From Flavobacteriales bacterium (GTDB lineage Bacteria > Bacteroidota > Bacteroidia > Flavobacteriales_F > PHOS-HE28): a stretch of DNA of 43,486 bases. This document shows positions 36,825 through 43,441 of the stretch, one piece after another. Where the stretch lies: NCBI GenBank assembly GCA_024103275.1, contig JAGFIV010000068.1:1-43486 (forward strand). Direction: 5' to 3'. The notes beneath the pieces were generated by a model that was given only the letters and a program-made list of their open reading frames with translations, did not search any database and was not told where the DNA came from. A program made the translations under genes and the position numbers. Positions within the stretch are counted from its first letter, which is position 1. Each line of letters opens with the position of its first letter.

Positions 36825-36921
36825 GGTAAGGGATCAGAGAGCATGGATGATCAAGCACGCAAGGAGGGTACCCGTACTGACCTAGGGGAGGCATCCACCG
36901 GTTCCACTGATCCAGCCAATC

Positions 36922-37018
36922 AGCGCATTGGGCGCATTGCTGCTTTGGCGAATTGGCGAATTGGCACATTGGCACATTGGCACATTGGCACATTGGCTCA
37001 TTGGCTCATTGGCAAATT
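36922..37018. repeat. 8-bp tandem array, ggcacatt family
   Basis: Nine uninterrupted 8-bp units run from 36947 to 37018: ggcgaatt x2, ggcacatt x4, ggctcatt x2, ggcaaatt x1. Three more degenerate units (ggcgcatt, gctgcttt type) extend it left to 36922 with one base out of phase. It ends 44 bp before the start of the glycosylase gene. Confidence 0.95.
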
Positions 37019-37062
37019 GTCCCCTGGCCAACCAGCCCGTCGCCAATGGCGAACTTTGTACC

Positions 37063-37773
37063 ATGCTTGCCGATCGATTGTTGAAGGAGGTTTTTGCGTT
37101 TGACATCACCAAGGCCAAGTTGCCGAAGCGGATCGGGGTGCTGGACCCGTTCAACGGGGAACATGCCGGGCAGGTCCGCCGCAACGTGGAGCTGTTCCAC
37201 CGCCGGTATTACGCCGATGAGCAACCGCGCATGCTGATGCTGGGCATCAACCCCGGGCGCTTCGGCGCGGGCAGCACCGGCATCTGCTTTACCGATACCA
37301 AGCGCTGCGTGGCCGACCTCGGTATTCCCGTGGAGGGTGTCCAAACGCATGAGCCCAGCAGCGACTTCTTTTACCGGATGGTGCGCGCGGCCGGCGGCGC
37401 CGAAGCGTTCTATGGCCAGGTGTATGTCCAATCGCTCTGTCCGCTGGGGTTCACCAGAAAGGGGAACAAGGGCACGTGGGTGAACCTGAACTACTATGAC
37501 GACCCCGTGCTGCAGAAGAAGATCACGCCGTTGATGGTGGAGTGGATCCATGCGCTGGTGGCCACCGGCATGCACACTACCGTGGCCTGCTGCATCGGCA
37601 CGGGGAAGAACTATGCCTTCATGCAGAAGCTGAACGACAAGCACGGCTTCTTCGGGCGGATCATCCCCTTGGAACATCCGCGCTTCGTGATGCAATACCG
37701 GTACAAGCGGTTGGGGGAGTACATCGACAAGTACCTCGCGGCCTTGGAGGAAGCGTACGCCGCCCCCGTGTAA
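37063..37773 (+). CDS. SMUG2-like uracil-DNA glycosylase family protein
   Basis: The 236-residue protein has the N-terminal active-site segment MLMLGINPGRFGAGSTGICFTD (GINPG type) and the C-terminal LEHPRFVMQYR (HP-R/S loop) of the SMUG2 branch of the uracil-DNA glycosylase superfamily. These enzymes excise uracil or related damaged bases from DNA. Start chosen at 37063 because the in-frame extension upstream is only tandem repeat DNA. It is the first gene of a plus-strand run, with the ECF sigma gene following after 42 bp. Confidence 0.88.
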   Translation: MLADRLLKEVFAFDITKAKLPKRIGVLDPFNGEHAGQVRRNVELFHRRYYADEQPRMLMLGINPGRFGAGSTGICFTDTKRCVADLGIPVEGVQTHEPSSDFFYRMVRAAGGAEAFYGQVYVQSLCPLGFTRKGNKGTWVNLNYYDDPVLQKKITPLMVEWIHALVATGMHTTVACCIGTGKNYAFMQKLNDKHGFFGRIIPLEHPRFVMQYRYKRLGEYIDKYLAALEEAYAAPV

Positions 37774-37815
37774 CCTTTGGCGCGCGGCCGCGACATATTG
37801 GGAGCCCACCACGCC

Positions 37816-38367
37816 ATGGCCCACGACCCGCGATCCGAATTCATGCAGGCCTATGCCCCCTGCCACGAGCCATTCACCCGCTACTGCGCGGCGCTGGCCT
37901 ACGGTCGTTTGGACGCCCAGGACCTGATGCAGGACGTGCTGCTCAGCGCCTTCCAGCGCTTCGATGGCATCCGGCGCAAGGACCAATTGCTGCACTACCT
38001 GATCCGCGCGGCACGCAACCGGGCGGCCAGCACCTGGCGCATCGGCAAGCGGTACGCGGCCATCACCGCCGCGCAGGCCGCCAAGCTGCAGGCAGCGGGG
38101 GCCAGCGCGGACATGCTGGTGGATGCCGGCCTGCTCTACCGGGCCATGGACAAACTCCCCCCCGCGCAGCGCGAGGCCTTGGTGCTCTTCGAGGTCAGCG
38201 GCCTCAGCATGGCTGAGATCGCGGCCATCCAAGGGTCGAACGAAAACGCCGTGAAGACGAAGGTGAGCCGCGCCCGTGCCACCCTGCGCGGGTTGATGGA
38301 AGACCGCAGCGCACCGAACCACCTTGAACTGGTCCGTTCCATCGCAATCCTGCTCCTGTTGCCATGA
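37816..38367 (+). CDS. ECF-type RNA polymerase sigma factor
   Basis: The 183-residue protein (start MAHDPRSEFMQAY, 37816; an ATG 39 bp upstream is less likely) has a region 2 including DAQDLMQDVLLSAFQRF and LLHYLIRAARNRAAS. Region 4 includes KLPPAQREALVLFEVSGLSMAEIAAIQGSNENAVKTKVSRARATL. Its stop overlaps the start of the next gene by 4 bp (ATGA). That partner has the layout of a membrane anti-sigma factor, so this sigma factor is probably held inactive at the membrane until a periplasmic signal arrives (inference). Confidence 0.92.
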   Translation: MAHDPRSEFMQAYAPCHEPFTRYCAALAYGRLDAQDLMQDVLLSAFQRFDGIRRKDQLLHYLIRAARNRAASTWRIGKRYAAITAAQAAKLQAAGASADMLVDAGLLYRAMDKLPPAQREALVLFEVSGLSMAEIAAIQGSNENAVKTKVSRARATLRGLMEDRSAPNHLELVRSIAILLLLP

Positions 38368-39533
38368 ATCCCGCCGAAGACTCACCCGTGAAACTGGACG
38401 TGCTGCGCCAGCTGCCCCTGGAAGTGGACCTGGAGCAGGTACGCCGCATGGTGGCCGGCTTCCCGTTGGCCATGGGCGCACTCGCGTGGCTGACCCATAC
38501 CCTGAAGTTCCACCTCAACACCGTTCTGATGAGCACCCTCGGCACCTTGATCGTCACCGCAACCCTTGTCTGGCAGGCCGGACCGCGCACCACCGTGGAA
38601 GCGCCTTCCGCACCGGCACCACGTACCCTTCCGGCCGCACCCGCCATGACCGAAGAAGCCGCAGCACCCGCAGCGCTTCCCGTGGAGCCCACGCGTGCAC
38701 CGGCCGTACCAGCAGCCGCGCCGACCAACGAACCGGCACCTGAGCCCGTCCCGGCGCAGCCCGCAGTGGCCGCCGCACCGGCATCCAGCACGGTTCCCGC
38801 TGCACCTCAACCCGCACCGGTTTCCCAAACACCTGTCGCACCACGGATCGCCACGGGCAGCGAGCGCGTGTTCGACCTGCGCGGCTTCACCGGCATCACC
38901 TTGCTGGGCAGCATGAACGTGGTGGTGGAGCAAGGGGATTTTGCCGTGCGGGCCACTGGCGCGGCGCGGGACCTGGACCTGCTCGACATCAGGATGGACG
39001 GCCATTCCTTGGCCATCGGCACGGTCAAGCAGCGCAAGGTCCGGTTCTCCGGGGAGGTGCTGGTGCAGGTCACCCTGCCCGAACTGAAGCAGCTGACCAT
39101 CAACGGCTCGGGCGATATCAAGGCCTCCGGCACAGGGACCACCACGTCGCTTGAACTGCATGTGCTGGGCTCCGGCGCCATCCTGTTGACCGGCCCGCGG
39201 AAGACCGGGCAACTCACCGTCGCGGTGAACGGCTCGGGCGCGGTGAAGGTGGAAGGCGTGGCCGTTTCGGGCACCAGCAAGGTCAGCATGCTGGGCAGTG
39301 GGGATGTCTTGGTGGCGGGCAGCACGGACCGGTTGGAACTCTCGCTCAGCGGCAGCGGCGACGCGGATGTCAGCGGCCTGTCCATCGCCAAGGGCGGGCA
39401 GGTCACCACCATGGGCAGCGGGGATGTCCTCCTCAACAGCACCGTGCCGCTGTCGGTGGTCAACATGGGCTCCGGCAGGGTGCGCAACACGGCTGGCCAG
39501 GCACCGAACACAGACGGGAACGGCGAGGATTGA
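38364..39533 (+). CDS. Putative membrane anti-sigma factor with periplasmic GIN (DUF2807) domain
   Basis: The 389-residue protein starts with a short cytoplasmic segment (1 to about 48; LPLEVDLEQVRRMVAGFPL), then one membrane helix (about 50-70; LNTVLMSTLGTLIVTATLVW). A long Ala/Pro-rich linker follows (about 72-165), then a DUF2807/GIN beta-helix domain (about 168-375; repeated GSGD motifs such as INGSGDIKASG and MLGSGDVLVAG). The topology and the ATGA overlap with the ECF sigma gene argue for an anti-sigma factor whose periplasmic sensor is the GIN domain. The cytoplasmic segment is not a recognised zinc-binding anti-sigma domain; it has no HxxxCxxC. GIN domains have no established ligand. 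Anti-sigma function is inference; GIN assignment is strong. Confidence 0.88.
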   Translation: MNPAEDSPVKLDVLRQLPLEVDLEQVRRMVAGFPLAMGALAWLTHTLKFHLNTVLMSTLGTLIVTATLVWQAGPRTTVEAPSAPAPRTLPAAPAMTEEAAAPAALPVEPTRAPAVPAAAPTNEPAPEPVPAQPAVAAAPASSTVPAAPQPAPVSQTPVAPRIATGSERVFDLRGFTGITLLGSMNVVVEQGDFAVRATGAARDLDLLDIRMDGHSLAIGTVKQRKVRFSGEVLVQVTLPELKQLTINGSGDIKASGTGTTTSLELHVLGSGAILLTGPRKTGQLTVAVNGSGAVKVEGVAVSGTSKVSMLGSGDVLVAGSTDRLELSLSGSGDADVSGLSIAKGGQVTTMGSGDVLLNSTVPLSVVNMGSGRVRNTAGQAPNTDGNGED

Positions 39534-42605: not shown

Positions 42606-43267
42606 AGGACGCTCCCTACATACGGGCCGGCATCGTACTGGCCATCTTCGCGGTGGCGGTGGGCATCGGCTACTACCTGATCAAGCCGTCGGATGAGCTA
42701 CCGATCTATCATCCCTCGCAGTTGGACCCGCGGCTGGTGGATGCCTCCGTCCGGAGCGAAAAGGGCGAGCACCACATCAAGCCATTCCGCCTCGTCGACC
42801 AGAACGGGGACAGCCTTTTCCTCTCCGACGTGCAAGGCAAGGTGCTGCTCACCGATTTCTTCTTCACCACCTGCGGCACCATCTGCCCCAAAATGAGCAG
42901 CCAACTGGCCCGCGTTCAGGAAGAGTTTGCCGATGACGACCGGGTGCTGCTCCTCTCCCATTCCGTCACCCCGGGCGCCGACTCGGTGCCGGTGCTGCAC
43001 GCCTATGCGGAACGGTACGGCGTGGACCACCGCCGTTGGCGGCTGCTGACCGGTGACCGCAAGCAGATCTACGACCTGGCCCGCACCAGCTATTTCGCCG
43101 TGATGGACGAAGGGGACGGCGGGCCCGACGACTTCGTGCATACGGAGAACTTCGTCCTGGTGGACCCGCAGGGCCGCATACGCGGGTTCTACGACGGCAC
43201 CAAGGCCAAGGAAGTGGACCAGGCCATGAAGGACATGCACAAATTGCTGAAGGAGATGAAGGGATAG
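42602..43267 (+). CDS. SCO1/SenC-family copper/thiol protein
   Basis: The 221-residue protein starts at a GTG (42602) overlapping the upstream TGA; no suitable ATG lies nearby. One N-terminal membrane helix (about 8-26) anchors a periplasmic thioredoxin-like domain. The metal-binding CxxxC is in FTTCGTICPKM (about 96-106) and the distal His is in FVHTENFVLVD (about 178). SCO proteins deliver copper to the CuA site of cytochrome c oxidase or act as thiol reductases. Cytochrome oxidase genes are not in the window, so the client is not shown. Confidence 0.93.
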   Translation: MKDAPYIRAGIVLAIFAVAVGIGYYLIKPSDELPIYHPSQLDPRLVDASVRSEKGEHHIKPFRLVDQNGDSLFLSDVQGKVLLTDFFFTTCGTICPKMSSQLARVQEEFADDDRVLLLSHSVTPGADSVPVLHAYAERYGVDHRRWRLLTGDRKQIYDLARTSYFAVMDEGDGGPDDFVHTENFVLVDPQGRIRGFYDGTKAKEVDQAMKDMHKLLKEMKG

Positions 43268-43283
43268 GGTGGCCTTTTGTGGG

Positions 43284-43380
43284 TAGTTGTCAGTTGCCAG
43301 TTGCCAGTTGTCAGTTGCCAGTTGTCAGTTGTCAGTTGCCAGTTGTCAGTTGCCAGTTGCCAGTTGCCAGTTGCCAGTTC
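43284..43380. repeat. 7-bp tandem array, cagttgc/cagttgt
   Basis: Twelve uninterrupted units of cagttgy run from 43291 to 43374, flanked by a tagttgt unit on the left and a truncated cagttc on the right. The last base alternates between c and t. The array begins 17 bp after the SCO stop. Confidence 0.96.
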
Positions 43381-43441
43381 GTGAGCCGTGGTACGTAGGA
43401 TGCAGTTCCTTGCTGTTGCCGTGGCGATTGCCTTCGGCATG

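Follow-up and report, generated by a model that had tools for sequence, protein, structure and literature searches.

Class I anti-sigma factors, e.g., RseA, RsiW and ChrR, are inhibitors encoded beside their own ECF sigma factor, and class I members devoid of zinc exist. FecR has a double role, i.e., it both holds and helps its sigma factor. Domain 2 of sigma factors normally binds core RNA polymerase.

According to the accessible part of PMC7406223, class I anti-sigma domains have a length of 101 ± 33 aa, and a class I anti-sigma neighbour is found for 6% of Bacteroidetes ECF sigma factors vs. 32% overall. In the same part of that paper, CnrY represents class II, a short two-helix domain whose helix 1 lies on sigma domain 4 and whose helix 2 lies on sigma domain 2. 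The Dma family, as described in the consulted portion of PMC13088901, is made of an N-terminal anti-sigma part, a membrane helix, a disordered tether and a beta-barrel. An ECF/anti-sigma pair of Flavobacterium psychrophilum shares its promoter type with T9SS genes, following the available excerpt of PMC9723704.

The window, i.e., the whole stretch of 43,486 nucleotides analyzed here, belongs to a 3.58-Mb genome made up of 137 contigs. The gene at 37816..38367 (+ strand, ATG start, TGA stop) encodes a protein of 183 aa matching Pfam Sigma70_r4_2 (7.1e-16, 58 bits), Sigma70_r2 (2.9e-5, 24.2 bits for a cut-off of 24) and TIGR02937, sigma70-ECF (60.5 bits, cut-off 42.9). Having regions 2 and 4 of sigma-70 and a size close to 180 aa, it is an ECF sigma factor. 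The NCBIfam assignment GFO_1088/PG0214 sigma (NF058625) is not reached (76.9 bits for a cut-off of 130). The next gene, 38364..39533 (+ strand, ATG start), encodes a GIN-domain membrane protein of 389 aa, the proposed anti-sigma factor; both genes share the four bases ATGA (38364-38367), thus the 4-bp overlap of the preliminary description is correct.

Genes for a PAPS reductase, a UDG-superfamily protein and an AMP-binding enzyme neighbour the pair and are retained in the nearest relatives (L095-L099); none of the three was found in L100-L105. A UDG-like gene is also located upstream in L011, L019, L021, L022, L024 and L025. At 36850-37030 and 43189-43440 of the window, ORF translations contain short peptide repeats (LAHWHIGTLAHWLIG; NWQLTTDNWQLTT), which suggests short tandem repeats located within intergenic DNA or close to it.

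The GIN protein can be divided into four parts. (i) Residues 1-50 precede the membrane helix and contain the proposed sigma-binding motif (residues 7-33, 38382..38462, + strand), supported by its conservation across families, its stand-alone versions and the coevolution of its second helix; the positions of helix 1 (about 8-16) and helix 2 (about 23-31) are transferred from the model of a relative (locus L044). (ii) The membrane helix corresponds to residues 51-69 (38514..38570, + strand), the best 19-residue hydropathy window starting at residue 51 (1.66). A second and weaker hydrophobic stretch begins at residue 29 (38448-38504; hydropathy 1.33), just ahead of that helix; in genus relatives it reaches up to 2.01 in some and falls to 0.2-0.4 in L012, L014 and L015. 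Because of this stretch, the single helix announced previously is confirmed as to its presence at 51-69, while its being the only one is likely, short of proof. (iii) The linker, described before as Ala/Pro-rich, extends over the 92 residues 74-165 (38583..38858, + strand) and contains indeed 57% of Ala plus Pro. (iv) The GIN domain, residues 175-375 (38886..39488, + strand), matches DUF2807 (PF10988) at 4.2e-22 and 79.2 bits, well over the Pfam gathering score of 24.2, in agreement with the first assignment. It would be located on the periplasmic side of the membrane and is the presumed sensor. Its sequence matches in the PDB are 3jx8 (9.5e-11), 3pet, 3lyc, 4ygu and 4opw, and also 7muc.

There is no Cys in residues 1-50, nor in the entire protein of 389 aa; the zinc anti-sigma motif (Hx3Cx2C) is thus absent, as had been noticed. 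The Pfam matches of the window protein include no curated anti-sigma model.

The GIN protein was searched in 45 congeneric genomes, with matches in 44. In 23 loci (L003-L025) the match includes the N-terminal 75 residues, and a sigma gene lies directly upstream in 21 of them; the remaining two, L007 and L020, sit at contig ends. None of the 8 examined GIN loci of the genus without that N-terminus (L001, L026-L032) has a sigma gene. This contrast (21/23 vs. 0/8) places the coupling of the sigma and GIN genes beyond chance. The ATGA overlap is identical in the 21 genus pairs.

Sigma searches were extended over the class and the phylum (the order-level round covered 8 genomes). Upon 332 loci examined across the phylum, 9 have no sigma gene in the stretch, leaving 323 sigma loci. 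The start of the downstream ORF scores at least 5 bits with the motif profile in 307 of these (260 different pairs and 47 duplicates), it being noticed that the training set of this profile included part of the 307 loci. The partner starts at most 50 bases from the sigma stop in 241 of the 260 non-redundant pairs; the two genes overlap in 152, among which 92 as ATGA. A best hydropathy window of at least 1.4 is found in 259/260 partner proteins, with a median start at residue 51.

The 16 sigma loci without a scoring downstream ORF were considered individually. Five of them (L112, L113, L115, L116 and L119) carry the very small motif proteins presented below. In L134, L196 and L284 the DNA ends less than 300 bases from the sigma gene, hence no partner is scored, and in L154 the motif and the helix are present with a frame that stops at 69 aa. 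Motif look-alikes are seen by eye farther downstream in L269 and L285; no motif ORF was found downstream of the sigma gene in L110 and L120. In L321, L323 and L336 the protein next to the sigma relative begins with a different N-terminus and is possibly another kind of anti-sigma factor.

The N-terminal motif has the consensus LF..AR..P.evs.eev...i. It is found beside this sigma group also in other families and in another class. With a profile built from 124 proteins of the own class, a score of 2 bits or more is obtained for 84% of the 136 other pairs vs. 0.9% of 227 control ORFs drawn from the same loci; in this leave-class-out test the ORFs were selected beforehand by means of a profile whose training set contained most of them, i.e., the scoring alone is independent, and the locus sets were assigned by search of origin. 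Negative own-class scores were obtained for 14 of the 260 pairs.

That the motif is a separable domain, apparently the working unit beside the sigma factor, is most plainly indicated by five Saprospiraceae loci where it constitutes the whole protein (53-58 aa, no membrane helix): L112:3052-3228, L113:2695-2856, L115:3053-3223, L116:3054-3221 and L119:1668-1835. These proteins start 4-41 bases past the sigma stop and, lying outside the training set, reach 22.7-47.5 bits with the own-class profile. The ORF that follows them resembles ClpP, by eye, in L112, L113, L116 and L119.

The outer part of the partner is far less constant. Family scans were performed on 118 full-length partners, the first in locus order of the 178 from L040 upward, i.e., 117 from outside the genus and that of L102 (same-genus genome G020). 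Pfam identifies Por_Secre_tail, the T9SS C-terminal sorting domain, in 21, DUF2807 in 17, FGE-sulfatase in 10 and DUF4097 in 6; WG repeats (2), SLT (1) and WD40 (1) are rarer among the 25 of 37 matched families listed. With NCBIfam, the T9SS type A sorting domain is found in 24 and GldK in 10. Neither the 25 of 37 Pfam families listed nor the full set of 21 NCBIfam families comprises an anti-sigma model or an outer-membrane barrel family. In the cases inspected singly, the T9SS domain occupies the extreme C-terminus of partners having a membrane anchor ahead of it: L061:1998-3422 (residues 395-471 of 475), L070:96-1424 (360-439 of 443) and L121:3097-4488 (384-463 of 464). Own profiles, built from few members, detect the tail in 66, GIN in 38 (of which 21 are the genus pairs) and FGE in 16 of the 260 proteins. 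On the sigma FastTree, at least 19 changes among four outer-part states are counted, and 6 for GIN vs. the rest; this tree omits 33/260 proteins that are unlabelled and truncated by the locus end.

Even inside the genus GIN is not fixed, since two genomes keep the motif without detected GIN. G020 (L102:3031-4293, also L354) retains the sigma gene with its ATGA overlap, the promoter ahead of it and a motif of 27-28 bits, and the outer part of the L102 partner has no match to GIN or to any Pfam family. In G042 (L368) the sigma gene, ATGA and the motif (about 14 bits) are kept, and no GIN is found within the 312 residues covered. The comparison of these sequences indicates that the outer part is exchanged and that the sigma-side motif is the conserved element.

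An ECF-type promoter, composed of a -35-like TAACCTTT, N12 and a -10-like CGAC, is located at 37771..37794 (+ strand) and starts 45 bases ahead of the sigma ATG; the -10-like stretch of the window reads CGACATA, not CGACTA. The arrangement TAACCTTT-N12-CGAC occurs 34-53 bases ahead of the sigma start in the 26 loci examined, with the exact TAACCTTT in 25 and TAACCTTA in L109. It is present upstream of the sigma gene in Roseivirga, Cytophagia, Chitinophagales and Saprospiraceae records as well. In the 44 genus genomes the exact pattern gives 27 sites in 26 genomes vs. 14 for the backward control, and a sigma gene follows 26 of the 27, which implies autoregulation: the sigma factor probably drives its own operon. 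The second exact copy of one genome, L369:1501-1524 (G003:C180:28380-28403), is found some 4.4 kb past the first and precedes an ORF of 102 aa.

At E ≤ 1e-3, 25 of the 44 genus genomes have a motif protein, and 24 of these 25 also have the promoter. The promoter is also present in G042 (motif at E 0.008) and in G007 (where the contig stops inside the sigma gene); G011 carries the motif but no exact copy of the promoter, and both are absent from 17/44 genomes. When up to 3 mismatches are allowed in 14 genomes, 19 sites are obtained, of which 13 belong to the sigma gene and 6 lie away from it, for 17 in the backward control. The sigma factor may have targets beyond its own operon; the 6 off-sigma sites being below the control, none is claimed. 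Upstream DNA was sufficient in 259 pairs, those of the genus among them; 27 show a near-exact form (six from L040 upward) and 34 a loose form, the latter occurring in 5/2425 control stretches. The majority of the distant pairs thus rely on something different.

Covariation between the motif and the sigma factor was estimated with mean-field couplings computed from 246 pairs, i.e., the 260 minus 14 (effective number 216), with 156 within-clade shuffles as null. The mean of the ten strongest couplings between motif helix 2 and sigma domain 2 is 1.074 vs. 0.606 ± 0.053 (z 8.8; no shuffle as high). The other blocks reveal a background covariation: z 5.0 for the control block membrane helix/sigma domain 2 and 4.7 for helix 2/sigma domain 4 (0/156 shuffles as high for both), 2.6 for membrane helix/sigma domain 4 (2/156) and for helix 1/sigma domain 2 (1/156), and 1.8 for helix 1/sigma domain 4 (5/156). 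Only helix 2/sigma domain 2 is therefore clearly above this background, and its signal survived the removal of doubtful pairs.

Several of the leading pairs have the spacing of a helix: N22 and N26 with S35, N23 with S64, and N27 with S68. Counted along the aligned row, they correspond in the window to V21, Q25, D22 and V26 (for N22, N26, N23 and N27) of the GIN protein and to Q35, R64 and N68 of the sigma factor. The third strongest single pair, N47-S40, falls outside the motif. A two-helix block pattern (helix 1 on sigma domain 4, helix 2 on sigma domain 2) loses its significance once the set is cleaned: it accounts for 15 of the 20 top pairs and is reached by 30/156 shuffles. A contact of helix 1 with sigma domain 4 is thus not claimed, the significance seen in the first runs having gone with the doubtful pairs. 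The covariation points to motif helix 2 as the part that would contact sigma domain 2.

In L044 the sigma factor and its partner are in one frame, so that translation continued past the stop yields a natural fusion for modelling. AlphaFold2 was run with an alignment of 70 rows, 22 being fused (from 29 one-frame loci) and 48 sigma-only (from 60). The model has a mean pLDDT of 87.3 and a pTM of 0.76, with motif helices at 198-206 and 213-221 (pLDDT 95 and 96 for blocks 201-210 and 211-220) and the membrane helix at 231-252. The partner alone, used as control, has a pLDDT of 87-91 over its first 30 residues (pTM 0.29). The motif helices being confident without the sigma factor, their confidence is no proof of docking and was dropped as such.

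The sigma factor is closed in the fusion model. The first rank in Foldseek is CnrH in complex with CnrY (TM-score by target 0.70). With VIA-align, Z is 16.2 for RpoE-NepR (3.7 Å over 157), 13.7 for SigW-RsiW (3.5 Å over 145) and 13.4 for CnrH-CnrY (3.1 Å over 144), and polymerase-bound ECF sigma factors aligned on both domains are at about 26-28 Å rmsd from the model. SigG1, listed without partner, has a Z of 11.8 (4.6 Å over 157); a closed sigma factor is thus not peculiar to complexes. As the VIA-align rows cover mostly model residues 4-168, the motif itself is hardly compared with solved folds. The fusion model is thus weak as a proof of anti-sigma docking.

The pair is best read as a membrane signalling unit in which the GIN protein would act as an anti-sigma factor on the ECF sigma factor, the latter being released by a signal at GIN (probability about 0.8). 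The anti-sigma factor first suggested for this locus gains support from the retention of the motif next to the sigma gene, the exchange of the outer domain, the stand-alone motif proteins and the helix 2/sigma domain 2 coevolution. At the level of sequence, the operon, the motif, the exchange of outer domains, the conservation of the promoter and the coevolution are established; from them we infer that the GIN protein physically binds and inhibits the sigma factor. In such a mechanism: (i) the first 33 residues or so of the GIN protein, in the cytoplasm, would hold the ECF sigma factor, the second short helix of the motif docking on sigma domain 2; (ii) a single membrane helix, followed by a flexible Ala/Pro tether, would join the motif to the periplasmic GIN domain; (iii) a signal at GIN, perhaps a change of the envelope or of the surface, would free the sigma factor; (iv) the freed sigma factor would transcribe its own operon from TAACCTTT-N12-CGAC.

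The preliminary description had also suggested a different class of anti-sigma domain. This is consistent with the absence of any anti-sigma model among the families listed for the 118 relatives, and we tentatively consider, at slightly less than even odds, that the motif represents a separate, uncatalogued and minimal (about 30 residues) class of ECF anti-sigma domains, widespread in Bacteroidota and carrying interchangeable outer modules. Alternatively, the domain could descend from the same origin as CnrY and be a remote offshoot of a known class, class II: CnrY is also short and two-helical, with helix 2 on sigma domain 2 (from what is accessible of PMC7406223), as the coevolution suggests here, and the modelled sigma factor resembles CnrH bound to CnrY. 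However, that structural ranking is shared by NepR and by the class I factor RsiW. Kinship by sequence was not significant: CnrY, represented by a single sequence, has 1.3 bits with the motif profile, in a different register, and its shuffled sequence does as well in 227 of 5000 cases. When the motif alignment was searched against PDB sequences, no anti-sigma factor was listed, CnrY included, and the best match was weak (E 0.067). A descent from a CnrY-like protein is possible, though less likely than not.

A role like that of FecR appears unlikely. The membrane protein would then hold and also help its sigma factor, the N-terminal part being needed for full activity after signalling. The motif beside the sigma factor, its tiny stand-alone copies and the coevolution fit any direct sigma partner, and sequence does not separate the two roles; nevertheless, the closed sigma factor of the model fits inhibition better, albeit weakly. 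It is very improbable that the GIN protein is merely a co-transcribed adhesin or structural component of the envelope, under the control of the sigma factor and without contact with it, since, although GIN occurs without a sigma gene (0/8 motif-less GIN loci have one) and the conserved promoter would express both genes together, it is the cytoplasmic motif that is conserved and GIN that is exchanged or missing.

If the anti-sigma motif does form a separate class, GIN would be one module, a T9SS sorting tail or a GldK-like domain being used in other lineages, and the status of the secretion and gliding machinery may be what some of these members monitor. Such a class would help to explain why only 6% of Bacteroidetes ECF sigma factors have class I neighbours (value from the accessible part of PMC7406223). 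A short, easily overlooked motif with exchangeable outer domains would offer a direct route to the missing partners of these sigma factors, and the GIN domain gains a testable role, that of signal receiver. The members with a T9SS tail raise the question of an anti-sigma factor monitoring protein export, i.e., one that could report on secretion. The F. psychrophilum pair, as far as the excerpt of PMC9723704 goes, may bear on these members. Among the literature matches listed, none links the DUF2807/GIN domain to anti-sigma or sigma factors, and no paper linking SUMF1 with anti-sigma, ECF and Bacteroidetes was found, while one listed paper mentions T9SS C-terminal sorting together with anti-sigma; most subscription papers lie outside these searches.

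The comparison with known systems leads to the following picture. Other DUF2807/GIN proteins share the GIN domain, and the 8 examined genus loci without the motif have no adjoining sigma gene. As for class I factors, the gene of the GIN protein adjoins that of an ECF sigma factor. The protein differs from them by the lack of Hx3Cx2C and of any Cys, and by a cytoplasmic part of about half the mean class I length of 101 aa (same accessible part of PMC7406223). Since zinc-free class I members exist, the missing zinc motif alone does not suffice to set the protein apart from class I. With CnrY-CnrH it shares a very short two-helix cytoplasmic part, in line with the class II size (residues 1-50 ahead of the membrane helix, two helices in the models of the L044 relative), and a similar modelled conformation of the sigma factor. 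CnrY differs in that it has 95 aa without a large outer domain, its sensor CnrX being encoded by a separate gene. With Dma, as far as the consulted portion of PMC13088901 describes it, the GIN protein has in common its occurrence in Bacteroidota, a gene beside that of an ECF sigma factor, an N-terminal sigma-binding part (putative in the GIN protein), one membrane helix, a long disordered tether and a C-terminal outer domain. However, Dma ends in an outer-membrane beta-barrel and the window protein in GIN, a difference from the Dma architecture. By analogy, we propose that the GIN protein may work like CnrY and Dma.
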